NCBI RefSeq assembly: GCF_000585375.1
Contig: NZ_KK073874.1
Coordinates: forward strand, 7,599,913 to 7,663,912
DNA length: 64,000 nucleotides
Origin: Cryptosporangium arvum DSM 44712
GTDB lineage: Bacteria; Actinomycetota; Actinomycetes; Mycobacteriales; Cryptosporangiaceae
Reading direction: 5' to 3'
A model generated the notes under the pieces. It did not search any database. It was not told the origin of the DNA and saw nothing but the letters and a program-made list of their open reading frames with translations. Each line of letters begins with the position of its first letter. The stretch's first letter is position 1. Below are positions 2-10,006 of the stretch, piece by piece. Position numbers and translations under genes: made by a program.

Positions 2-967
2 GAGCGCACCGGGTTGACCGGGCTGCTGCTGCTGGTCGCGCGGTGCGCGGTGACGCTGGTGCTGGCCGAGCTGACGTATCACCTGATCAGCCGCCCGGTA
101 CGCAGCGGACGATGGCCGCGGCCCGGGCGCGTGCTGCCTCCGCTGACCGCGCTCGCCGCGGTCGGCGCCGTCGCGGTGGCGGCCGTGGTGGTGGCGGCCG
201 TGGTGGTGACCACACCGCCGGCACCGCCGGCGAAGGCCCCCGGTACGACGATCGCCGCGGCGCCGAGCACGTTGCTCACGCGACCGGGGCGCCCGGCGGG
301 ACAGCTGCGGATCACGGTGTTCGGCGACTCGGTCGCGAACAGCCTGGCGATCGGGCTGCCGAGGCTGACCGGAGCGACGCTCACCAACCGGTCGCTGATC
401 GGATGCGGCATCGCCCGGTCCGGACCGGTGCGCAACGCGTCGAAGATCCAGGACCCGTACGAGCGGTGCCCGCGCTGGGACGCGTACTGGGCGCAGGGCG
501 TCCGGGCCGATCACCCTGACGTCGCGCTCGTGGTGCTGGCGCGCTGGGAGCTGCTGGATCGCCGGTTCGGCGGCCGGTGGCGGCACATCGGTCAGCCCGT
601 CTACGACGCGTACCTGCGCACCGAGCTCACCCGCATGATCCGGGTCCTCACCACCGGTGGGGCGCGGGTCGTGCTCGCCACCGCGCCGTACAACCGCCGG
701 TACGAGCGGCGCGACGGCAGCCTCTACCCCGAGGACGAGCCCGCGCGGATGGACGCGTGGAACCGGATGCTCCAGGACACCGCGCGCACCGCCCCGGACC
801 GCGTCCGGATCGTGGACCTCGGGGCGCGGCTCTGCCCCGAGGGGCGCTTCACGCGCGAGGTCGGCGGCGTCCCGGTACGCACCGACGGCCTCCACCTCAG
901 CGAGCGCGGCGTCCGGGAGGTCGTGGCCCCCTGGCTCCTGCCGCAGCTCGCCTCGGCGGCGACCTAG
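2..967 (+). CDS. 3' end of a membrane acyltransferase / SGNH-hydrolase fusion protein
   Basis: The reading frame is open through the left edge, so the start is missing. The first ~30 visible residues form a hydrophobic helix ending in a short basic stretch (YHLISRPVRSGRW), as at the last membrane helix of OafA-type acyltransferase-3 proteins. A second hydrophobic Ala/Val helix and a Pro/Ala linker follow, then an extracytoplasmic SGNH-hydrolase domain with the nucleophile block (VFGDSVANSL) and the C-terminal Asp-x-x-His block (DGLHLSERG). Proteins of this fusion type O-acetylate cell-wall or exported glycans. The acyltransferase-3 assignment rests on this C-terminal architecture only. The next gene is convergent and stops 8 bases away. 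Confidence 0.8.
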   Translation, partial: ERTGLTGLLLLVARCAVTLVLAELTYHLISRPVRSGRWPRPGRVLPPLTALAAVGAVAVAAVVVAAVVVTTPPAPPAKAPGTTIAAAPSTLLTRPGRPAGQLRITVFGDSVANSLAIGLPRLTGATLTNRSLIGCGIARSGPVRNASKIQDPYERCPRWDAYWAQGVRADHPDVALVVLARWELLDRRFGGRWRHIGQPVYDAYLRTELTRMIRVLTTGGARVVLATAPYNRRYERRDGSLYPEDEPARMDAWNRMLQDTARTAPDRVRIVDLGARLCPEGRFTREVGGVPVRTDGLHLSERGVREVVAPWLLPQLASAAT

Positions 968-975
968 CCCTCGGG

Positions 976-1638
976 TTAGACCGCGGCGGGAGCCGGGTCG
1001 GACGACGGCTCGGGCTCCGACTCGGAGTGCGCCGCCCCGGTGGAGGCCGGGCCGGCGTCGTGGCCGAGGCCGTCGAGGCGCAGGGTGCCGGGTGGCGCGA
1101 TGCCGAGCCGCTCGGCCGCGAGCAGGAACGCCTCCGCGTACGGCGAGTGCGCCGTCGCGTCGTGGACGAGGTCCCAGTCGATCTGTTCACGCAGCGCCCG
1201 CCCCAGCGGCAACACCGTCGTGAGGTCGCAGTAGTGCTCGGTGAACGCCAGCAGCTTGTTCAGCAGCAGGTCGGTGGCCGAGAGCACCGGCATCCGCACC
1301 GCCTCGACCGGCATCTCCTCGGCCCGCTCGAGCATCGCGACCGTGACCTCACGCTCCGACGGCCGGAAGATCAAGTCGACCAGGCACTCCCCGTCGTACA
1401 CCTTGACCAGCCAGTCCTCCGGCGGCTGCTCGGGCCGGAGGCCGGCATCGACGCAGGCACCCAGCGCCGACTGGACGTCCGACGGCCGGATCAGGAAATC
1501 GACGTCGTGCGTGGACGCCGGGCCGCCTCTGGCGTAGACCGCGAAGCCTCCGGCCAGCGCGAACGGGAGTTCGGCCGCTTTCAACGTGCTGGCCACCTTC
1601 TTCATCGTGACGATCAGCGCGTCCGGATCTCCACTCAT
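976..1638 (-). CDS. Nucleotidyltransferase-fold protein (MNT/AbiEii-like)
   Basis: A 220-residue protein. Residues ~26-50 carry a Gly-Gly-x-Ala block followed by THDVDFLIRP, the metal-binding acidic pair of minimal nucleotidyltransferases. A helical domain with VLSATDLLLNKLLAF follows, as in AbiEii/DUF6036-type proteins. The C-terminal 20 residues are low-complexity Ser/Glu/Pro. Some relatives are toxins that modify tRNA or proteins, but no antitoxin-like gene lies beside it and the nearest upstream gene is divergent, so a toxin role is not supported here. The ATG follows a GGGGGGA Shine-Dalgarno stretch. A SigB-like promoter lies about 30 bases upstream, so it may belong to the stress regulon. 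Substrate unknown. Confidence 0.75.
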   Translation of the reverse strand: MSGDPDALIVTMKKVASTLKAAELPFALAGGFAVYARGGPASTHDVDFLIRPSDVQSALGACVDAGLRPEQPPEDWLVKVYDGECLVDLIFRPSEREVTVAMLERAEEMPVEAVRMPVLSATDLLLNKLLAFTEHYCDLTTVLPLGRALREQIDWDLVHDATAHSPYAEAFLLAAERLGIAPPGTLRLDGLGHDAGPASTGAAHSESEPEPSSDPAPAAV

Positions 1639-1817: not shown

Positions 1818-2552
1818 GTGCTCAGCTGCCAGATCGACCGTACCCAGCCCATCACGGTGCTGCAGCTGGTCGGTGACCTGCGCCTCGGCACCGTCCATCA
1901 GGTTCGCGCCGCGTTGCTGAAGTGCCTGGTGGAATGCCCGGAAGCGGTGATCGTCGACCTGTCCCAGGCGGACGTGTCGTCCGCCACCGCGCTGTCGGTC
2001 TTCGGCGCGGTCAGCCGGCGCGCCGCCGAATGGCCGGTGGTCCCGCTGGTGCTCACGGCCGGCCCGCCGGAGGTCCGGGAACGGCTGGAGCCGGTCACCC
2101 GGCTCTGGCAGATCCCGGTCTACGCGTCGCTGGTCGAGGCGCTGAGCGAGGCCGTCCGGCTCCCGCCGCCGGTGCGGCGGGAGCGCATGGAGCTGCGCCC
2201 CGGCACGATGGCGATGCCCAGGGCCCGCTCGATGGTGGCCGAGGCGTGCCGCGAGTGGGGGCTGAACGACCTGGTCCTCCCGGCCGAGCTCATCATGTCC
2301 GAGCTGGTCAGCAACGCCGTTCAGCACGCGGGAACCGATCTGGTCGCGAGCGTGGTGCTCCGCCGCGGCCTGCTCCACCTCACGGTCGGCGACGGCGATC
2401 CCACCCCGCCGCGGAAGAGCGCCGGCTATCCGCCGATCGGTGCGCTGAGCGGACGCGGTCTGCTCCTGGTCGACGAGTTCGCCAGCGGGTGGGGCTGCCT
2501 GCCGATCGAGGGCGGCAAGGTCGTCTGGGCCGTCGTGCGCCTGCCGGCCTGA
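1818..2552 (+). CDS. STAS domain fused to an RsbW-like ATP-binding domain
   Basis: A 244-residue cytoplasmic partner-switching protein. Residues 1-110 are a STAS (anti-anti-sigma) domain (VLQLVGDLRLGT, VIVDLSQADVS). Residues ~125-244 are a GHKL/HATPase_c domain of the RsbW type, with the N box ELIMSELVSNAVQHAG and a Gly-rich SGRGLLLVDEF lid. Antagonist and kinase are normally separate proteins; here they are one chain. At the usual phosphoacceptor site (DSSG) my alignment gives a degenerate SATA, so the STAS half may not be phosphorylated normally. A GTG start was chosen because the homology begins right after it. It is preceded by a SigB-like promoter and is 46 bases upstream of the acyl-CoA dehydrogenase gene. 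Its partner sigma factor is unknown; the RsbW/SigB pair at 12.4-13.9 kb is a candidate. Confidence 0.85.
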   Translation: MLSCQIDRTQPITVLQLVGDLRLGTVHQVRAALLKCLVECPEAVIVDLSQADVSSATALSVFGAVSRRAAEWPVVPLVLTAGPPEVRERLEPVTRLWQIPVYASLVEALSEAVRLPPPVRRERMELRPGTMAMPRARSMVAEACREWGLNDLVLPAELIMSELVSNAVQHAGTDLVASVVLRRGLLHLTVGDGDPTPPRKSAGYPPIGALSGRGLLLVDEFASGWGCLPIEGGKVVWAVVRLPA

Positions 2553-2598: not shown

Positions 2599-3525
2599 GT
2601 GCCCACCGCAAGCAAGTTCCTCGCCGCACACGGATCCGGCGCACTCGACCTTCCCCTTCCCGGCCACGGCCGGACCGCGGACCGGTTCGCCGCGCTGGCC
2701 GGGCTGGCCCGCACCGACACCGTCCTTGGCAGGCTGGCCGAGGGCCACACCGACGCCGTGGCCATCCTCGCCGAGCTCGACGGCCCCGACCCCGCGGATG
2801 CGGTCTGGGGTGTCTGGGCCGCGGTGCCGAACTCGATCGTGGCCGTCCGGGAGGAGGGCACCTGGTGGCTGGCCGGTGACCGGCCCTGGTGCTCCGGCGC
2901 CGGGGTCTGCACCCGGGCGCTCGTCACCGCGACCACCGATGACGGGGTGCGGCTGTTCGCGGTCGACGTCACCGAGCCTGCGGTGACCGCGCTGGACGGG
3001 ACGTGGCCGGCGGTGGGCATGGCGGGCAGCGACAGCCGGACCGTGCGCTTCACGCGGGCGCGCGGGATTCCGGTGGGCGGGGTCGGCGACTACGTGAACC
3101 GGCCGGGGTTCTGGGCCGGCGGGGCGGGGGTGGCCGCGTGCTGGTACGGCGCCGCCGTGGGCGTGGCCGAGCGCCTGGTGTCGTCCGCCCCCACCGATCC
3201 GCACGCGCTGGCGCACCTGGGGGCGGTGGACACCGCGCTCGGCGGTGCGTCGGCCCTGTTGGACCAGGTCTCCGCGCTCATCGACACCGAGTTCGACGCC
3301 GCGGCGCTCCGCCGCCCGGTCCGGCGGGTCCGGGCCGCGGTCGAGGCCGCCGCCACCGCGACGCTCGACCACGTCGGCCGCGCCCTCGGTGCGGGCCCGC
3401 TCTGCCAGGACGCCGAGCACGCGCGACGCACCGCCGATCTCACCGTCTACCTGCGTCAGAGCCACGCCGAGCGCGACCTGGCCGACCTCGGCACCGATGT
3501 CCTGCTGACCGGAGCGGGCTGGTGA
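2599..3525 (+). CDS. Acyl-CoA dehydrogenase family protein
   Basis: A 308-residue flavoprotein-type enzyme, shorter than the usual ~380 residues of fatty-acyl-CoA dehydrogenases. The middle domain has WWLAGDRPWCSGAG and later SDSRTVRFTRARG, the usual beta-barrel elements. The C-terminal half is the four-helix bundle (GVAACWYGAAVGVAERL onward). I see no clear catalytic Glu block and the N-terminal helical part is reduced, so its substrate may not be a free acyl-CoA. The GTG start has GGGGAAA upstream. It overlaps the next gene by 4 bases (GTGA). It is first in a four-gene coupled set with a PIG-L deacetylase, a NodS-like methyltransferase and a GT2. The physiological reaction is inferred only. 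Confidence 0.8.
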   Translation: MPTASKFLAAHGSGALDLPLPGHGRTADRFAALAGLARTDTVLGRLAEGHTDAVAILAELDGPDPADAVWGVWAAVPNSIVAVREEGTWWLAGDRPWCSGAGVCTRALVTATTDDGVRLFAVDVTEPAVTALDGTWPAVGMAGSDSRTVRFTRARGIPVGGVGDYVNRPGFWAGGAGVAACWYGAAVGVAERLVSSAPTDPHALAHLGAVDTALGGASALLDQVSALIDTEFDAAALRRPVRRVRAAVEAAATATLDHVGRALGAGPLCQDAEHARRTADLTVYLRQSHAERDLADLGTDVLLTGAGW

Positions 3526-4250
3526 GCCCACTGATCGAGGGCGCGGGGACCGCCGAGGCGTCCTGGCAGGCCTGGTCGCCCACCTGGCCGGTGCTGAGCG
3601 TGCCGGCGACCGCGCCGATCGTCGTGGCCCCGCACCCCGACGACGAGGTGCTCGGAGCAGGTGGCCTCCTCGCCCGGCTGGCGGCGGCCGGCGCGCCGGG
3701 CGTCGACGTCGTGGCGGTGACGGACGGGGAAGCGTCGCACCCGGGCAGCACGGTCCACTCGCGGGCGGAGCTCGCGGCCCTGCGCCGGGCCGAGACCGAC
3801 GAGGCGCTCGCCCGCCTGGGCCTGCACGCACCCACCGTGCACCGCCTCGGCCACCCCGACGGGGGCATCGACGAAGCCGCGCTCACCGCCACGCTCGCGG
3901 CCCTGCTCACCGCCGGGCGCTGGTGCCTGGCCAGCTGGCGCGGCGACGGTCACCCCGATCACGAGATCGTCGGCCGCGCGGCCGCCGCCGCCTGCGCGCG
4001 GACCGGAGCCCAGCTGGTCGAGTACCCGATCTGGACCTGGCACTGGGCCCGGCCCGACGACCCCCGGGTGCCCTGGGACCGGTTCCGGCGCCTCCCGCTC
4101 ACCGACGCCGAGCGCGCCGCGAAACGGCACGCGCTCGCCGCGTTCGTCACCCAGGTGCAGCCACTCGGCCCGGCCCCGGCCGACGCGCCGATCCTCCCGC
4201 CGCACGTGCTCGCCCGCTTCGACCGTCCGGAAGAAGGCTTTTTCCTGTGA
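3522..4250 (+). CDS. PIG-L (LmbE-like) family deacetylase
   Basis: A 242-residue zinc-dependent N-deacetylase. Near residue 30 is IVVAPHPDDEVLGAGGLL, the family metal-binding motif (His-Pro-Asp-Asp-Glu). The third ligand region is SWRGDGHPDHEIVGRA. The family removes acetyl groups from N-acetylglucosamine-type sugars (GlcNAc-PI, GlcNAc-inositol in mycothiol, bacillithiol, antibiotic intermediates). The start is the GTG inside GTGA at the end of the preceding gene, giving a 4-base overlap, so translation is coupled. Its partners suggest it acts on a sugar placed by the GT2 in the same operon rather than in mycothiol synthesis. Confidence 0.88.
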   Translation: MSPLIEGAGTAEASWQAWSPTWPVLSVPATAPIVVAPHPDDEVLGAGGLLARLAAAGAPGVDVVAVTDGEASHPGSTVHSRAELAALRRAETDEALARLGLHAPTVHRLGHPDGGIDEAALTATLAALLTAGRWCLASWRGDGHPDHEIVGRAAAAACARTGAQLVEYPIWTWHWARPDDPRVPWDRFRRLPLTDAERAAKRHALAAFVTQVQPLGPAPADAPILPPHVLARFDRPEEGFFL

Positions 4251-4849
4251 CCACGCTTCCCACCGAGTACTTCGACCGGATGTATGCCGCCGACGACGAC
4301 CCGTGGGGCTTCCGTTCCCGCTGGTACGAGGAGCGCAAGTACGCGCTGACGCTGGCCGCGCTCCCCCGCCGCCGGTACCGCGCCGGGTTCGAGCCGGGCT
4401 GCTCGATCGGCGTGCTCACGGCCGCGCTCGCCGACCGCTGCGACACGCTGCTCAGCACCGACGTCGCCGAGGCGGCGATCACCCGGGCGCGGGCCAACGC
4501 ACCCGGCGCCCGGGTGGAGCTGCGCCGCCTCCCCGAGGAGTGGCCCGACGAGACGTTCGATCTGATCGTGCTGTCCGAGGTCGGCTACTACCTCGACCGG
4601 CGGGCGCTCGAGCGGCTGGTCGACGCCACGATCGCCGGCCTCGAACCCGGCGGCGACCTGGTGCTCGTGCACTGGCTCCACCCGGTGCCCGACTACCCGA
4701 TCGACGGCGAAACGGTGCACACCGCGTTCTCCGGCCGGCCGGAGCTGTCCCGGACCGTCCGGCACGAGGAGGAGGACTTCCGGCTCGAGGTCTACGCCCG
4801 GGTCCCTCCGGCGGCGCGGTCGGTCGCCGCCCGCGACGGCTTGTGCTGA
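4247..4849 (+). CDS. NodS-like SAM-dependent methyltransferase
   Basis: A 200-residue class I methyltransferase. It opens with YFDRMYAADDDPWGFRSRWYE, and the SAM-binding glycine block is FEPGCSIGVLTAALADRC, both close to the NodS pattern. LSTDVAEAAITRARANAP gives the second SAM strand, and LIVLSEVGYYLDRRAL is motif IV. NodS N-methylates the deacetylated glucosamine end of rhizobial Nod factors. This relative sits directly after a sugar N-deacetylase, so N-methylation of an amino sugar is a reasonable inference, not shown. It overlaps the upstream stop by 4 bases (GTGA) and the downstream start by 7 bases. Confidence 0.85.
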   Translation: MTTLPTEYFDRMYAADDDPWGFRSRWYEERKYALTLAALPRRRYRAGFEPGCSIGVLTAALADRCDTLLSTDVAEAAITRARANAPGARVELRRLPEEWPDETFDLIVLSEVGYYLDRRALERLVDATIAGLEPGGDLVLVHWLHPVPDYPIDGETVHTAFSGRPELSRTVRHEEEDFRLEVYARVPPAARSVAARDGLC

Positions 4850-5490
4850 GACGGATCGCCGTCGTGGTGCCGGCCCACGACGAGGAGGAACTGCTCCCCG
4901 CCTGTCTCGACGCGCTGCGCGAGGCCACGCGGCACGCACCGCTCCCGGTCGACGTCCTGGTCGTGCTCGACGCCTGCACCGACGACACCGCCCGGGTCGC
5001 GGCCGGGTTCGGGGTGGACACGCTGACCGTGAGCGCCCGCAACGTCGGCCGGGCCCGGGCCGCCGGTGCCGCCGCGGTACTCGCCGACGACACCTGGCTG
5101 GCCTGCACGGACGCCGACACCCGGGTGACCCCGGACTGGTTCGCCCAGCAACTGCGGCTGGCCGGGGCCGGCGCCGACGTCGTCACCGGGATCGTCCTGG
5201 TCGACGACTGGGGCGACTGGCCGGAGGCGACCGCGGTGGCGTTCCGGGACGCGTACCGCGAGAACCTGCACGCCCATGTGCACGGCGCGAACCTCGGGCT
5301 CAGCGGCGTGGCGTACCGGCGGTCCGGTGGCTTCCGGCCGGTGGCGGTCGCCGAGGACCACGCGCTGGTGCGCAGCGCCCTGGAGGCCGGGCTGCGGGTG
5401 GCGCGCAGCACCGAGGTGCGCGTGTTCACCAGCGCCCGTCGTCACGCCCGCGCCCCCGAGGGCTTCAGCGGCTTCCTCCGGGCGCTCTAG
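4843..5490 (+). CDS. Glycosyltransferase family 2
   Basis: A 215-residue GT-A glycosyltransferase. Its N terminus is IAVVVPAHDEEELLPACLDAL, followed by the nucleotide-sugar Asp block VLVVLDACTDDT and the metal-binding DAD of LACTDADTRVTPDWF. The acceptor-side loop has HGANLGLSG and AVAEDHALVRSA. No membrane helix is present, so it probably works on a soluble or membrane-surface acceptor. The GTG was chosen because the conserved strand begins four residues later; it overlaps the methyltransferase by 7 bases. This is the last gene of the four-gene set, and its stop overlaps the next minus-strand gene by 4 bases. Sugar donor and acceptor are unknown. Confidence 0.87.
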   Translation: MLRRIAVVVPAHDEEELLPACLDALREATRHAPLPVDVLVVLDACTDDTARVAAGFGVDTLTVSARNVGRARAAGAAAVLADDTWLACTDADTRVTPDWFAQQLRLAGAGADVVTGIVLVDDWGDWPEATAVAFRDAYRENLHAHVHGANLGLSGVAYRRSGGFRPVAVAEDHALVRSALEAGLRVARSTEVRVFTSARRHARAPEGFSGFLRAL

Positions 5491-5906: not shown

Positions 5907-6908
5907 GTGGCGAGCACGCGGTGTCGGGTCGGTCTGGTCGGTGCCGGGCGGGCCGCGGCCCGGCACGCGTCGGTTCTCGCCGGGTTCCACGACGTGTCGA
6001 TCGTCGGCGTCACCGACCCCGACGTGCGGGCGGCAGCCGAGCTGGCCGCACGCACCGCGAGTACGGTCGCGCCCACCCTGGCCGCGCTGCTGGGTCTCCG
6101 GCCGGACGCGGTGTTCGTCTGCGTCCCGCCGCACGCGCACGGCCCGATCGAGGACGAGCTGCTCGACGCGGCCGTGCCGATGTACGTCGAGATGCCGCTG
6201 GGCGTCGATCGGGACCGGCCGGACGCGCTGGCCCGGCGGGTGGCCTCGGCCGGGCTGGTCACCGCGGCCGGACATCACTGGCGGTACTCCGCGGCGGTGT
6301 CCCGGGCGCGGTCCGCGCTGGCCGGGCGTCCGATCCGGCTGGTCACCGGTACCTGGCTGGACGCCGTCGGCGGCGCGCCGTGGTGGGGGCGCCGCGAGCA
6401 GTCCGGCGGGCCGCTGATCGAACAGGTCGGGCCGCTGCTCGACCTGCTGCGCGCGCTCGCCGGCGAGGCCGTCGAGGTGTACGCGCTGGGCGACGAGGCA
6501 CCCGTTCCGGGGACGGACTTCGACAGCGTGACCGCGGCGACGCTGCGATTCGCGTCGGGAGCGGTGGGAACGCTGGCCACGACGTGCCGGTTCGCACCGC
6601 GTGCGACCGACGGGAACGGCACCGGGTCGCGGGTGGCGGAGCTGGAGATCCATGCCGACGGGGCCGGCGCGCGGATCACCGAGGACGGGTGCGAGATCCG
6701 GGTGGGCGACCGGTCGGAGTGGCACGCGGTCGACGCCGGCGCCGCGGTCCGCGCGATCGACCGGGCGTTCGTCGACGCGGTCCGCCGGCCCGACGCACGC
6801 GGCGGCGTCCTGGTGGACTACGCACAGGCGGTACGGACCCACCGCCTGGCCCACGCGCTCACCCGCTCAGCCGCCGAAGGCCGCCCGTTACGGCTGCGCG
6901 CGGATTAG
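5907..6908 (+). CDS. Gfo/Idh/MocA family NAD(P)-dependent oxidoreductase
   Basis: A 333-residue protein. An N-terminal Rossmann fold (RVGLVGAGRAAARHASVLAG) binds NAD(P). The cofactor-side loop is YVEMPLGVD, where most members have EKP. The catalytic region HHWRYSAAVSRARSAL replaces the usual N-x-R stretch, and a C-terminal alpha/beta domain follows (ELEIHADGAGARI). Members oxidise or reduce sugars, inositols or related polyols; substrate unknown here. It begins at a GTG and converges with the small gene that follows, with which it overlaps by 4 bases. The preceding plus-strand operon of sugar-modifying genes could be functionally linked but is about 400 bases away. Confidence 0.85.
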   Translation: MASTRCRVGLVGAGRAAARHASVLAGFHDVSIVGVTDPDVRAAAELAARTASTVAPTLAALLGLRPDAVFVCVPPHAHGPIEDELLDAAVPMYVEMPLGVDRDRPDALARRVASAGLVTAAGHHWRYSAAVSRARSALAGRPIRLVTGTWLDAVGGAPWWGRREQSGGPLIEQVGPLLDLLRALAGEAVEVYALGDEAPVPGTDFDSVTAATLRFASGAVGTLATTCRFAPRATDGNGTGSRVAELEIHADGAGARITEDGCEIRVGDRSEWHAVDAGAAVRAIDRAFVDAVRRPDARGGVLVDYAQAVRTHRLAHALTRSAAEGRPLRLRAD

Positions 6909-7274: not shown

Positions 7275-7547
7275 TCAGTCGCCGGGCCATTCGCCGGTGG
7301 ACCGGGCCCACGCCTGCGCGCCCGCCCGGTCGATCGTCGCCTTGACCACGGCGTAGATCGCTCCCTGAATAGCGGACGCGAGCAACACTTCGCCCCACCC
7401 GTATTCACTCTGGGTCGCACCGGGCGCGTCGTCCCGCCCGGACACCTTCTTCCACACCTGCTTGAAGATGATCCCGGCGACGAGACCACCGGCCATACCG
7501 GAGGCCAGACCGATCGGTCGGTAGACGACCTTCGAAGCCTTGCTCAT
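7275..7547 (-). CDS. DUF4235 small membrane protein
   Basis: A 90-residue protein with the DUF4235 pattern: a short basic N terminus, a first membrane helix (PIGLASGMAGGLVAGIIFKQ), a polar middle (VSGRDDAPGATQSEYGWGE) and a second helix (VLLASAIQGAIYAVVKATID). Actinobacteria often encode it next to DUF3618 and holin-X proteins, as here. No biochemical role is established. The ATG overlaps the end of the DUF3618 gene by 4 bases, and it is last in the four-gene operon before a strong terminator. Confidence 0.88.
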   Translation of the reverse strand: MSKASKVVYRPIGLASGMAGGLVAGIIFKQVWKKVSGRDDAPGATQSEYGWGEVLLASAIQGAIYAVVKATIDRAGAQAWARSTGEWPGD

Positions 7548-7927
7548 CGGCCGAACCTCCGCCGGACCGGCGTGGCCCGCCGGGCCCGCAGCTTGCGGCC
7601 GCCGATGACGAGCGCCACCACGGTCGCGGCCGCACCCGCCGCGACCTGCGGCCACGGCGCGTACCGCGCGAGCGCCTCCTTGCCGCGCTCCGCCGACGCC
7701 TGCGCCTTCACCTTGCCCACCTCGGTGCGCTCGGCGGCCCGCGTCTTGAGCGAGTCCAGCTGCACCTTCGTGGTCTCCACCGTCTCGCGGACCTTCGCCT
7801 GGGCCTGCGCTTTCACGTCGGCCTTAGCGGCGAGGGCCTCGACGGTGTCGCCGAGGTCGGCTCTTATCTCGGCGATCTCAGCGCGGAGCTGATCGGGATC
7901 CTTCGCCTCGGTCTTGTCCGCCGTCAT
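7544..7927 (-). CDS. DUF3618 membrane-anchored helical protein
   Basis: A 127-residue protein that begins with the family signature (DPDQLRAEIAEIRADLGDTV). It continues as a long charged coiled coil with Lys/Ala/Glu repeats (residues ~30-90), then one membrane helix (PQVAAGAAATVVALVIGG) and a basic Arg-rich cytoplasmic tail. This is the normal DUF3618 layout. Starts and stops overlap by 4 bases with both neighbours, so it is translationally coupled to holin-X and DUF4235. The family is associated with envelope stress in actinobacteria, with no defined mechanism. Confidence 0.9.
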   Translation of the reverse strand: MTADKTEAKDPDQLRAEIAEIRADLGDTVEALAAKADVKAQAQAKVRETVETTKVQLDSLKTRAAERTEVGKVKAQASAERGKEALARYAPWPQVAAGAAATVVALVIGGRKLRARRATPVRRRFGR

Positions 7928-8373
7928 CGGTGCGCACGCTCCTTCACGGTCTCGATGTCACGCTTCACGCCGTCGACAGCCTCGGCCGGAACCGGCGGCG
8001 TGGCCTGCTGGAACTCTTTCTTACCGGTCAGCGCGAGCACGCCGGCCACGGCGAACAGCACGACGGCGACGATGAGCGCCGACGCCCATACCGGCAGCAC
8101 GAGCGCGAGCGCCGCGATCGCCGCGGTCACCACCGCGCCCACGCCGTAGAGCGCGACGACCCCGGCCCCGCCGAACATGCCGGCGCCGAGCCCGGCCTTC
8201 TTGCCCTTCTGGGTGAGCTCCAACTGGGCGAGCTTCAGCTCGTCGCGCACGAGCGTCGAGACCTGGTCGGCCATCCGGGTCACGAGTTCGGCGGTGGACG
8301 CCGAACCGGTGTCGAACCGCCCCGGCGACGGGGCGTCGACAGGTTGAACTCTGGGTTCGGTGTGGGTGGCCAT
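7924..8373 (-). CDS. Phage-holin-like membrane protein (ActinHolin-X family)
   Basis: A 149-residue protein. Residues ~28-60 are an amphipathic stretch (LVTRMADQVSTLVRDELKLA) typical of the family. Two membrane helices follow (VVALYGVGAVVTAAIAALAL and ASALIVAVVLFAVAGVLALT), then a charged helix at the C terminus. Despite the name, these chromosomal proteins are not lysis genes; there is no endolysin or other phage gene near. It starts 12 bases after the BrkB-family gene and overlaps DUF3618 by 4 bases. Confidence 0.88.
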   Translation of the reverse strand: MATHTEPRVQPVDAPSPGRFDTGSASTAELVTRMADQVSTLVRDELKLAQLELTQKGKKAGLGAGMFGGAGVVALYGVGAVVTAAIAALALVLPVWASALIVAVVLFAVAGVLALTGKKEFQQATPPVPAEAVDGVKRDIETVKERAHR

Positions 8374-8385
8374 GTGTTGTTCCTC

Positions 8386-9369
8386 CTAGGTGAGCGAACC
8401 GTGGGTGCTGGGCCCCACCTCGTCGGCCTTCCGGGCGCCGCGGTGCCCGAGGGGTTCAGCCGGCCCGGTGGTGCTGTCGCGCTCCGTCTGGGCCTCTAGT
8501 TCGGCGTTCAGTTCGGCGCCGAAGAGGATCGCCAGGCACGAGATGTAGAGCCAGAGATTGAGGACGATGACGCCGGCCAGCGCGCCGTACGTCTTGTTGT
8601 AGCTACCGAAGTTGTTGACGTAGAACGAGAACCCCGCCGAGGCGATCAGCCAGAGCACGGTGGCGACCACGGCGCCCCAGGAGATCCACCGGAAGCGCGC
8701 GTTGCTCCGGTCGGGCGCGAAGCGGTACAGCAGGCTGAGCCCGAACATCATCAGCAGCGCCAGCAGTACCCAGCGGCCGATGCTGACAATCCCGTTGGCG
8801 AACGCTCCGAGCTGCAGCGCGTCGAGCACTGGCGGCACCACCGCGACCAGCAGGATCGCAACCACGAACGCGACGATCGCGCCGAGCGTCATCAGGATCG
8901 CCAGCCCGCGCTTCTTCAGGAAGTTGCGCTCGTCCACCTCGTCGTACGCGGTGTTGACGGCCTGGATCATGCCGTTCATGCCGCCCGACGCGCTCCACAG
9001 CACGGCGCCGAGCGAGATGATCAACCCGATCGACAGGCCTTTGCCGCTGGCGTTGGTGGCGGCCGTGATCGGGTCGGTGATCACCTGCTTGACGTCCGAC
9101 GACAGGCTCGCGGTCAGCTCGTCGATCTGGCCGGCGATCACGTCGGGGCTGGCGACCAGGCCGTACATCGTGATCGCACCGATCGCGGCCGGGATGAGCG
9201 CCAGCCAGGCGTAGAACGCGGCGGCGGCCGCGGCGGTGGAGATCTGGTCGTCCTTGAACTCGCGGACGGTGCGGACGAGAACGTCCTTCCAGCCGCGCAG
9301 CGGGATCTGACGGGGCGAGTTCGCTTGCCGACCGCGTGCTGCGCTCGAGCCGGCGGGCACTGCGGTCAT
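8386..9369 (-). CDS. YihY/BrkB family inner-membrane protein
   Basis: A 327-residue polytopic protein of the family once called ribonuclease BN. It has the early signature DDQISTAAAAAAFYAWLALI, about six membrane helices, LWSASGGMNGMIQAVNTAYD in the middle and a conserved SYNKTYGALAGVIVLNLWLY near the end, followed by a charged tail. Members are probably transporters or membrane-organising proteins; the substrate is unknown. The ATG was chosen because GGGGGTGA lies just upstream, and the conserved domain begins ~30 residues in. It is first in a four-gene envelope operon with a SigB-like promoter about 32 bases upstream. Confidence 0.87.
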   Translation of the reverse strand: MTAVPAGSSAARGRQANSPRQIPLRGWKDVLVRTVREFKDDQISTAAAAAAFYAWLALIPAAIGAITMYGLVASPDVIAGQIDELTASLSSDVKQVITDPITAATNASGKGLSIGLIISLGAVLWSASGGMNGMIQAVNTAYDEVDERNFLKKRGLAILMTLGAIVAFVVAILLVAVVPPVLDALQLGAFANGIVSIGRWVLLALLMMFGLSLLYRFAPDRSNARFRWISWGAVVATVLWLIASAGFSFYVNNFGSYNKTYGALAGVIVLNLWLYISCLAILFGAELNAELEAQTERDSTTGPAEPLGHRGARKADEVGPSTHGSLT

Positions 9370-9400
9370 CCGGTCACCCCCTGGAGTCGGTACGCCTCCC

Positions 9401-9426
9401 ATACCCCGAGTAACGGTGGTCAATAC
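9401..9426 (-). promoter_or_regulatory. SigB-type promoter candidate for the BrkB/holin-X/DUF3618/DUF4235 operon
   Basis: On the minus strand: GTAT, 16 bases, GGGTAT, about 32 bases before the ATG at 9369. It matches the pattern seen at 1669-1694 and 1735-1759. Confidence 0.55.
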
Positions 9427-9586
9427 TCCGGGGCGGGGTGGAACTTCCTTCCTGTCCGGTCCACCCTGTTGTCCCGGCCACGCCACACGTAGTCTGGACG
9501 GGATGGGAGCGGTTGAGCAGCCAGCCACTTCGGGTCGCGCGCCGGCGGCGCGCGCCCATGCGCGGCGTTCAGCGAGGGAGTAACCC

Positions 9587-10006
9587 ATGACGCCACCGAA
9601 GGCCGAACACCCCGCTGCAGCCAGCGGCGTGGAGGTCCGGACCGTCGCCGAAAGTGCGGGTTCTCCCGTCCAGGAAACCTTGACGGTCGCTACGCAGCGT
9701 GAGGCCAGCGGCCTCACCACCGTCCGCGTCGACGGCGAACTCGACATGCTCACCGCACCGACGCTGATCTCCGTGGTCGACGACGAACTCGACCGCGGCT
9801 GCAACCGCCTGCTCGTCGATCTGCGGCCGGTGCGGTTCCTCGGTTCCAGCGGGCTCACCGCGCTGATCGCGGTGGCCCGCCGCTGCGAAACCGATCAGGT
9901 GCAGCTACGCCTGGTGGCGGACGGACCCAGCGTGCTCCGACCGCTGGAGATCACCGGTCTCTCGGCCGCGTTCGTCACCGTCTCCGACCCGCTCGACGCC
10001 TGGTAG
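9587..10006 (+). CDS. STAS-domain anti-sigma-factor antagonist
   Basis: A 139-residue RsbV/SpoIIAA-like protein. After a ~35-residue leader comes the STAS fold (TTVRVDGELDMLTAPTLIS), and the phosphoacceptor block is RFLGSSGLTALI, with the two serines and Gly intact though the usual preceding Asp is Gly. In its unphosphorylated state such a protein binds an RsbW kinase and frees the sigma factor. The RsbW/SigB-type pair 2.4 kb downstream is the likely partner. The ATG has a GAGGGAG site. The last ~100 bases overlap, in antisense, the end of the convergent glycosyltransferase gene. Confidence 0.9.
   Translation: MTPPKAEHPAAASGVEVRTVAESAGSPVQETLTVATQREASGLTTVRVDGELDMLTAPTLISVVDDELDRGCNRLLVDLRPVRFLGSSGLTALIAVARRCETDQVQLRLVADGPSVLRPLEITGLSAAFVTVSDPLDAW

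Follow-up and report, generated by a model that had tools for sequence, protein, structure and literature searches.

The window, a 64,000-nucleotide stretch of the Cryptosporangium arvum DSM 44712 genome, contains four open reading frames that follow one another on the same strand and all begin with GTG. Their coordinates agree with the overlaps of 4, 4, and 7 bases given in the preliminary description (Table 1). Since long chance reading frames are frequent in this GC-rich DNA, the reality of the four genes rests on homology. Pfam searches matched the preliminary description's family assignments as well: PIG-L (PF02585; 86.6 bits, cut-off 28.2), NodS (PF05401; 39.5 bits, cut-off 24), and GT2 (PF00535; 62.9 bits, cut-off 23.3) exceeded their cut-offs, whereas PF02770 on the first protein stayed below its own (29.5 bits, E 8.5e-7, cut-off 33.3). 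A membrane segment is unlikely in all four proteins, the maximum 19-residue hydropathy being 1.48, and a promoter scan found no promoter-like site. Four mycobacterial loci that carry the cluster also contain relatives of the STAS + HATPase_c_2 gene upstream.

Table 1. Genes of the operon (2599..5490) and two neighbouring context genes, with positions in the window.
Feature	Position	Strand	Length (aa)	Basis and remarks
Nucleotidyltransferase-like gene	976..1638	-		Context only; three mycobacterial loci have relatives close to the cluster
STAS + HATPase_c_2 regulator-like gene	1818..2552	+		Context gene, 46 bases upstream of the operon
Acyl-CoA-dehydrogenase-fold (ACAD-fold) flavoprotein	2599..3525	+	308	Pfam, AlphaFold, Foldseek; no classic catalytic Glu; probably a flavin monooxygenase/oxidase
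PIG-L de-N-acetylase	3522..4250	+	242	Pfam; HPDDE and DGHPDHE motifs intact
NodS-like SAM methyltransferase	4247..4849	+	200	Pfam; probable N-methyltransferase
Soluble GT2 glycosyltransferase	4843..5490	+	215	Pfam; DxD and ED motifs

The AlphaFold model of the flavoprotein (pLDDT 96.5) was compared with solved structures. The nine best Foldseek rows were chains of DszC, TdsC, and MsuC (top DszC E 9.5e-14); by TM-score, some dehydrogenases reached 0.84 against 0.78–0.80 for the first DszC rows. VIA-align gave a Z of about 30 for monooxygenases and dehydrogenases alike, so the fold cannot discriminate between the two. The catalytic glutamate was examined by global hhalign of the flavoprotein against eight glutamate-bearing ACADs of the same genome, these being the 8 retained of 11 ORFs extracted from 24 loci after exclusion of two spurious frames and of L199, an ACAD-like ORF of this genome that itself lacks the glutamate motif. 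The glutamate of the C-terminal EGT site aligned with S288, with low local alignment confidence. Among 94 flavoproteins, residue 288 is S in 65, H in 22, Q in 3, D in 2, W in 1, and T in 1, and none of them has a glutamate at positions 286–290; E291, three residues beyond the glutamate site, is found in 85. Because of the low local confidence, the nearby E291, and the motif-less L199, the missing glutamate alone is no proof of a monooxygenase.

The flavoprotein has the same fold as the ACAD-fold flavin monooxygenases DszC and MsuC and the nitrososynthases KijD3 and DnmZ, and its CSG-type motif and a histidine of the first helical region can be aligned with theirs. Nitrososynthases act on amino sugars, and the title of the KijD3 structure entry names an amino-sugar ligand. 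In profile alignments, H50 and the CSG motif could be aligned with the active-site Ser/His set of DszC. Compared with DszC, the flavoprotein is about 90 residues shorter and the C-terminal histidine is kept in one subfamily only: His289, matched to DszC His391, for which PMC11134501 gives a role, is missing in nine of ten relatives checked, and those nine retain H50, S99, and Q287. A further difference from the ACAD-fold monooxygenases is that no reductase is found among the four window genes. Taken together, sequence and model indicate that the protein is a probable flavin monooxygenase or oxidase. Nothing pointing to an acyl chain was seen, and there are no acyl genes among the four. The suggestion that this enzyme replaces the acyltransferase was therefore not upheld, as the ACAD glutamate is lacking and the best fold matches are monooxygenases, and a role in acyl transfer or fatty-acid metabolism is disfavoured. 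The annotated plasmid records examined that carry the flavoprotein label the product acyl-CoA dehydrogenase, an annotation that is probably misleading. In Deinococcus, the flavoprotein makes up the C-terminal end of a longer polypeptide (787 residues in one case), the first 400 residues of which resemble a glycosidase by eye.

Across 86 sequences of the PIG-L protein, H38, H144, and H147 never vary, and 85 of the sequences have D41. Its solved relatives are TT1542 and PH0499, whose rows name no function, followed by diacetylchitobiose deacetylase, BshB1, and MshB. The top NCBIfam models were BshB1 (39.7 bits, cut-off 182.5) and BshB2 (37 bits, cut-off 195.25), and the mycothiol models MshB and Mca gave 23.9 of 224.35 and 20.7 of 277.15 bits, respectively. 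Separate PIG-L genes of the host genome exceed the MshB and Mca cut-offs. Since the window gene falls far short where these other genes pass, action on mycothiol precursors, which the preliminary description had named as a finding that would overturn its reading, is disfavoured; on the same grounds, we rejected a mycothiol or bacillithiol role for the protein.

The methyltransferase scored 51.1 bits with the NodS equivalog NF041650 (cut-off 300), and its best characterised PDB relatives are NodS and then phosphoethanolamine N-methyltransferases. A single ORF spans PIG-L and methyltransferase in 19 of 98 loci, so at the sequence level the two are fused in some lineages. D90 and D92 of the glycosyltransferase DxD motif are each conserved in 86 of 87 sequences, and in these alignments the motifs of the sugar enzymes are intact. 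The highest 19-residue hydropathy of the glycosyltransferase is 1.12, making a membrane segment unlikely. Its fold matches WrtF, the chondroitin and heparosan polymerases, and TarP/TarS, and no single sugar donor stood out in the VIA-align list.

We then considered 105 loci (the window copy included) that were chosen by similarity to the PIG-L gene and contain a relative of it. All four families lie within 4 kb of one another in 89 of these loci, arranged as flavoprotein, PIG-L, methyltransferase, glycosyltransferase in 64, with the glycosyltransferase first in 22, with it reversed in 2, and permuted in 1. A recognisable glycosyltransferase within 4 kb is absent in six of the 105, and five PIG-L relatives are solitary. 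Short gene overlaps were seen again in many further loci. A sample of 149 genomes of the host's phylum, its own included, was not chosen by PIG-L similarity. The flavoprotein occurs in 16 of them, the methyltransferase in 14, and PIG-L in 7; the methyltransferase lies within 3 kb of the flavoprotein in all 14 of its genomes and PIG-L in all 7, and the glycosyltransferase is also nearby in 14/14 methyltransferase genomes (13 sampled genomes and the window itself). The four families proposed in the preliminary description to act together are hence co-conserved elsewhere, and by sequence comparison they form one real conserved unit.

Similar clusters are also present in proteobacteria and Deinococcus. 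The D. radiodurans cluster is interrupted by a helicase gene in the opposite orientation, and the stretch examined has no annotated glycosyltransferase. The four proteins have correlated distance matrices (0.42 to 0.78, against a maximum of 0.16 in 200 permutations), which shared descent alone could explain. In the flavoprotein tree (61 loci of the main subfamily), Actinomycetota and Pseudomonadota are separated by one branch (support 90/97); with the phyla on opposite sides of it, no cross-phylum horizontal transfer is shown in this subfamily. Viral contigs gave 62 PIG-L relatives, the best row having 34% identity across most of the query. The open-library literature searched contained no description of this enzyme set, which is apparently both widespread and undescribed.

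Of the 16 flavoprotein genomes in the 149-genome sample, 9 have no such PIG-L gene. In seven of these nine, the cluster contains a Pyr_redox_2 reductase together with a polysaccharide deacetylase (Pfam was run on two of each), and in the other two, neither deacetylase type was found in the stretch examined. Six of the seven carry the Rubrobacter family label; the seven include a Rubrobacter indicoceani plasmid, the published annotation of which shows the same gene order. For the one copy of the Rubrobacter deacetylase (PF01522) that was scanned, the best NCBIfam model was NodB (TIGR04243; 113.4 of 240 bits, below the cut-off). By homology, most sampled flavoprotein genomes that lack PIG-L thus have a NodB-type deacetylase in the operon, which strengthens the comparison with NodB made in the preliminary description. 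This exchange, together with the ORFs shared by PIG-L and methyltransferase, argues for a sugar de-N-acetylation step, probably followed by N-methylation.

Nod-factor synthesis (NodC-NodB-NodS, with NodA) likewise combines a GT2 enzyme, an amino-sugar deacetylase, and a NodS-family methyltransferase, and the Rubrobacter deacetylase is of the NodB type. In contrast, the window glycosyltransferase is not a membrane-bound processive chitin synthase of the NodC type, none of the four operon proteins matched an acyltransferase such as NodA, the deacetylase is PIG-L, the methyltransferase falls far below the NodS cut-off, and an ACAD-fold flavoprotein is added. The window genes thus match a true Nod-factor pathway at none of the NodC, NodA, NodS-equivalog, and NodB positions. 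A likeness in activities is also offered by proteins annotated as trifunctional glycosyltransferase/SAM methyltransferase/polysaccharide deacetylase in Gloeothece, Rhizobium, and Sulfitobacter, which unite the same three activities in one chain. The protein of Gloeothece, a cyanobacterium, matched GT2, NodS, and deacetylase models; unlike the window operon, it has a deacetylase of the polysaccharide-deacetylase type, and no flavoprotein gene is found among the annotated surrounding features.

The Pfam neighbour censuses covered 119 neighbours of 20 loci and 136 of 159 listed neighbours, reporting the 25 commonest of 145 and of 179 families; the 23 neighbours outside the second census comprise, among others, all those of loci L089 and L096 as well as one gene of the L100 catalase cluster. 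All-against-all clusters include antisense shadow frames and were used only where their members made sense. Neither this comparison nor the censuses, within the 25 commonest families, revealed a conserved fifth gene or a dedicated transporter. Among the families listed, SDR, LigD/Ku, alpha-amylase-type, and GAF/ANTAR genes recur near the cluster in a minority of loci, and the frequent SDR neighbours may be chance occurrences. A stress-type gene was present in 12 of 14 annotated plasmid regions and a catalase in 6 of 14, the regions being hand-picked and the stress words set after they had been read; a Bradyrhizobium control region likewise contains Ku, LigD, and Hsp20. The Acinetobacter johnsonii region contains a Haem_oxygenas_2 protein, a catalase, otsB, and trehalose-6-phosphate synthase. 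It is reminiscent of the A. baumannii dtpC/katE desiccation cluster of PMC13232832, in that on Acinetobacter plasmids a Haem_oxygenas_2 protein (assigned by family), catalase, and trehalose genes are encoded close to the operon; a term search of the main text of that paper found none of the four enzyme names. The neighbours suggest stress protection without proving it, and because catalase, trehalose, or DNA-repair genes often lie close to the operon, the product may be a protectant against drying or oxidation.

We consider it about evenly balanced whether the operon encodes a cytosolic amino-sugar tailoring pathway that makes a small soluble stress-protectant glycoside. The GT2 enzyme would use a nucleotide sugar to place an N-acetylhexosamine, most likely GlcNAc, on a small acceptor, the PIG-L enzyme would take off the acetyl group, and the NodS-like methyltransferase would then methylate the freed amine. 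In the flavoprotein step the product would be oxidised, most likely through oxygenation of either the amine or the acceptor, and the resulting glycoside, made under stress, would guard against drying or oxidation. Inferred parts of this scheme are methylation at N rather than O, the order in which the enzymes act, what the flavoprotein catalyses, and the role in stress. The part of the preliminary description that stands is thus a single amino-sugar pathway with GT2, deacetylase, and NodS-like methyltransferase, while the ACAD-like enzyme as a substitute for the acyltransferase does not. A more specific version, which we consider less likely than not, is an unnamed stress-protectant pathway making an N-methylated, flavin-oxygenated amino-sugar glycoside, for which PIG-L- and NodB-fold deacetylases were recruited separately. 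It would span at least Actinomycetota, Pseudomonadota, and Deinococcota, plus plasmids, and its product, for example a zwitterionic N-oxide or hydroxylamine of a sugar, might behave in the manner of a compatible solute or a radical trap.

The operon might instead decorate a cell-surface glycan or glycolipid, with the glycosyltransferase adding a side sugar that is then deacetylated, methylated, and oxidised. This is possible but rather doubtful: the Novosphingobium cluster stands in one run with four glycosyltransferases, a glycosyltransferase and UDP-galactopyranose mutase adjoin the cluster on two Deinococcus plasmids, and the glycosyltransferase fold matches named above would suit it, yet the window proteins have no likely membrane segment (maximum 1.48), the 25 commonest neighbour families include no flippase or polymerase, and transporters account for at most 4 of 136 proteins. 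We regard it as quite unlikely that the genes form a breakdown route in which an amino-sugar compound from the environment is stripped and oxidised as food. In its favour are the frequent SDR neighbours and the fusion of the Deinococcus flavoprotein behind about 400 residues that look glycosidase-like by eye; against this, the usual presence of a glycosyltransferase and a SAM methyltransferase speaks of biosynthesis, and sugar-uptake systems recur in no more than a few proteins among the listed neighbour families.

A glycosyltransferase and a PIG-L enzyme open both the mycothiol and the bacillithiol pathways (MshA-MshB and BshA-BshB), in this same order, the glycosyltransferases there being of class GT4. 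A low-molecular-weight thiol or redox buffer akin to these would fit that pairing, the catalases close by in some loci, and the rank of BshB1 and BshB2 as top models. It is nevertheless very improbable, as the glycosyltransferase is of a different class, the PIG-L scores (39.7 of 182.5 for BshB1, 23.9 of 224.35 for MshB) lie far below the cut-offs, the host's own MshB- and Mca-type genes pass them, cysteine ligase and acetyltransferase are absent among the four genes, and a methyltransferase and a flavoprotein are additional. Least probable, and hardly credible, is a true Nod-factor-like lipo-oligosaccharide signal: the NodS-like methyltransferase, GT2, and the NodB-type deacetylase of the Rubrobacter version speak for it, but the small glycosyltransferase has no likely membrane segment, the acyltransferase is absent among the four, and the hosts include Deinococcus, Acinetobacter, and Rubrobacter.

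Two features, the exchange between PIG-L and NodB-type deacetylases and the fusion of PIG-L with NodS-like proteins, render the first two chemical steps of the proposed tailoring pathway directly testable and may illuminate the origin of the rhizobial NodB-NodS pairing. Deinococcus radiodurans, Rubrobacter, and Acinetobacter also carry the enzyme set, whole or in part. That these enzymes stay together across phyla, often with catalase, trehalose, or Ku/LigD genes close by, suggests a small molecule that has been overlooked and that would serve the survival of bacteria under dry or oxidising conditions.

The four ORFs of the operon encode a flavoprotein of the acyl-CoA dehydrogenase (ACAD) fold, a PIG-L de-N-acetylase, a NodS-like methyltransferase (MT) and a GT2 glycosyltransferase (GT). 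Their position and successive overlaps (4, 4 and 7 bases) in the preliminary description were confirmed exactly, and all four lie on the + strand. The host genome is a single contig of 9.2 Mb, and no likely membrane segment was found in any of the four window proteins.

Genes of the operon and its surroundings in the window
Feature	Coordinates	Strand	Remark
SGNH domain (type that occurs in fusions with acyltransferase-3 membrane proteins)	14-967	+	window edge
Nucleotidyltransferase-like gene	976-1638	-	PF14907, 28.2 of 31.2 bits (below cut-off)
Flavoprotein (ACAD fold)	2599-3525	+	ORF
PIG-L	3522-4250	+	ORF
NodS-like methyltransferase	4247-4849	+	ORF
GT2	4843-5490	+	ORF
Gfo/Idh/MocA oxidoreductase	5907-6908	+	next after operon
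DUF4235, DUF3618, Phage_holin_3_6, BrkB in succession	7275-9858	-	further past operon

Species genomes were scanned for PIG-L with a four-sequence alignment as query, and the best 80 of 309 relatives were combined with the window copy, 19 related-genome loci (only about 3.7 kb long) and five plasmid loci. The results showed that all four families lie inside 4 kb in 89 of these 105 PIG-L-picked loci. The operon pointed out in the preliminary description is real. The gene order was that of the window in 64 of the 89 complete loci; the GT came first in 22 and was reversed in two, and one locus was permuted. Among the incomplete loci, the GT was absent in six, the flavoprotein in three (two of which begin less than 200 bases from a contig end), the MT in one, and both MT and GT in one, while PIG-L was alone in five. 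L036, L043, L048, L074 and L106 are loci with close PIG-L relatives and none of the other three genes inside 4 kb.

Since the 105 loci had been chosen by PIG-L similarity, a second sample was used, consisting of 149 genomes of the phylum, own genome included. Matches were found in at least 16 genomes for the flavoprotein (E 1e-30), at least 14 for the MT (1e-25) and at least 7 for PIG-L (1e-30), these being lower bounds because the first 15–21 candidates per genome were scored in each search. All 14 MT genomes and all 7 PIG-L genomes fell among the 16 flavoprotein genomes, with the match less than 3 kb from the flavoprotein, and the GT was present in all 13 MT genomes fetched, the 14th being the window itself. 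The four families are thus co-conserved elsewhere, as had been proposed for checking, and we consider it highly probable that they form one functional unit. One reported flavoprotein match (L216, genome G011) contains a TGA.

Among the candidates scored, PIG-L had no match in nine of the 16 flavoprotein genomes. In seven of the nine (L201-L205, L207 and L209), the flavoprotein is preceded by a polysaccharide deacetylase, and MT and GT are separated by a Pyr_redox_2-type protein, both identified by tblastn; Pfam checks covered two of each protein. Six of these seven genomes share the Rubrobacter family label and the seventh is labelled otherwise. Neither deacetylase type was found within the fetched stretches of L210 and L213. 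L205 is a Rubrobacter indicoceani plasmid (169,605 bases; protein match 99.7%), whose published annotation gives a polysaccharide deacetylase, acyl-CoA dehydrogenase, SAM methyltransferase, FAD oxidoreductase and glycosyltransferase. The top NCBIfam models were NodB for the Rubrobacter deacetylase (113.4 bits vs a cut-off of 240) and NodS for the methyltransferase (74.6 bits vs 300). That deacetylases of two unrelated folds occur in the same kind of operon argues for de-N-acetylation as the step. The amino-sugar reading of the preliminary description is supported and sharpened. It is very likely that the operon performs sugar de-N-acetylation.

A solved member of the MT family is 4isc (E 1e-70), followed by NodS (1e-25) and phosphoethanolamine N-methyltransferases, and the MT step is probably N-methylation. 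The PIG-L profile matched TT1542 and PH0499 best, then diacetylchitobiose deacetylase, BshB1 and MshB. Structural neighbours of the GT model (pLDDT 96.3) were WrtF, the chondroitin and heparosan polymerases and TarP/TarS, with glucosyl-3-phosphoglycerate synthase also near in Foldseek.

The suggestion that the flavoprotein serves acylation in place of an acyltransferase was unsupported. Its AlphaFold model (pLDDT 96.5, pTM 0.93, built from 59 sequences) gave chains of the flavin monooxygenases DszC, TdsC and MsuC at Foldseek ranks 1-9, and ranks 17 and 18 were taken by the nitrososynthases DnmZ and KijD3, although by TM-score some dehydrogenases exceeded the top-ranked monooxygenase rows, and VIA-align left the two groups tied near Z 30. 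DszC, TdsC and MsuC were also among the best matches in PDB profile searches, one of which had two chains named acyl-CoA dehydrogenase type 2 interspersed with them. The flavoprotein profile was aligned globally with eight ACADs of the host genome that bear the catalytic Glu, and this Glu fell, with low local confidence, on S288. Of 94 sequences, 87 have S or H at that position and none has E; near this low-confidence site, Glu stands at position 291 in 85 of 94. Q287 is present in 94/94 and H289 in 93/94. A check of ten plasmid-borne and Rubrobacter-type relatives showed H50, S99 and Q287 in every one; H289 is retained in the Acinetobacter relative and missing in the other nine, which come from alphaproteobacteria, Deinococcus and loci of the Rubrobacter type. 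The reductase inside the Rubrobacter-type operon is consistent with a flavoprotein requiring reduced flavin. Oxygenation is the likelier prediction over acyl-CoA oxidation, and we assign it to this step tentatively. A Methylobacterium plasmid (L222) carries a lone flavoprotein relative among cyclic-di-GMP-type genes.

Of the 98 loci having both PIG-L and MT, 19 encode them as a single ORF, 11 of these being from titled records. The ten whose flavoprotein is in the tree share one branch (support 100/99), so the fusions may stem from one event. A cyanobacterial protein from Gloeothece (L229, 1955-5431) carries the annotation of a trifunctional GT/methyltransferase/polysaccharide deacetylase, and GT2, NodS and deacetylase models all match it. 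On three Deinococcus plasmids (L219, L225, L226) roughly 400 additional N-terminal residues precede the flavoprotein. This extension is similar in all three; it gave no Pfam match in the one copy scanned and by eye looks glycosidase-like.

Some neighbours recur elsewhere. A Gfo/Idh/MocA oxidoreductase lies near the MT-GT pair of the Paraburkholderia D15 plasmid, and DUF883 and Phage_holin_3_6 lie about 4 kb beyond the Pandoraea plasmid cluster. The STAS gene adjoining the window operon has relatives in four mycobacterial cluster loci, and the nucleotidyltransferase-like gene in three (L070, L093, L103), the L093 copy scoring above the PF14907 cut-off.

No description of the cluster was found among the titles and abstract openings listed from one open-access library; subscription journals were mostly outside this scope, and ‘undescribed’ is therefore provisional. 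A term search of PMC6181384 did not find the enzyme names, and the passages of PMC12742793 consulted concern hydrophilins only.

At least one stress-type gene was present in 12 of 14 annotated plasmid regions, and catalase in six, the regions being hand-picked and the gene words set after reading them; L027 (unannotated), L222 (flavoprotein alone) and L229 (fused protein) were set aside. The genes were CsbD and DUF883 (Pandoraea); catalase, trehalose genes and DUF2171 (two similar Acinetobacter regions); ferritin-like and spore photoproduct lyase (Kitasatospora); Dps (Deinococcus AJ005); YsnF/AvaK (Paracoccus); catalase (Novosphingobium); Mn-catalase (Rubrobacter); Mn-catalase and universal stress protein (Roseivivax); Ku and LigD (Bradyrhizobium); otsB (Legionella lytica, flavoprotein absent); and catalase (Paraburkholderia, with only MT and GT of the cluster). 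The D. radiodurans and D. gobiensis regions had no countable stress-type gene. Three A. baumannii ‘plasmid’ records of 3.7-4.1 Mb (NZ_CP077849.1, NZ_CP064203.1, NZ_CP104448.1) are probably misfiled chromosomes. No catalase was annotated in four 40-kb control stretches of the same plasmids; the Bradyrhizobium control also carries Ku, LigD and Hsp20, the Roseivivax control contains a single universal stress protein, situated at the very end of the stretch, and the other two have no stress-type gene. At 20 proteobacterial chromosomal loci, LigD and Ku each accounted for 4 of 119 neighbour proteins, and a LigD cluster lay within about 10 kb in 8 of 86 sources. On balance, we slightly favour a stress role for the operon.
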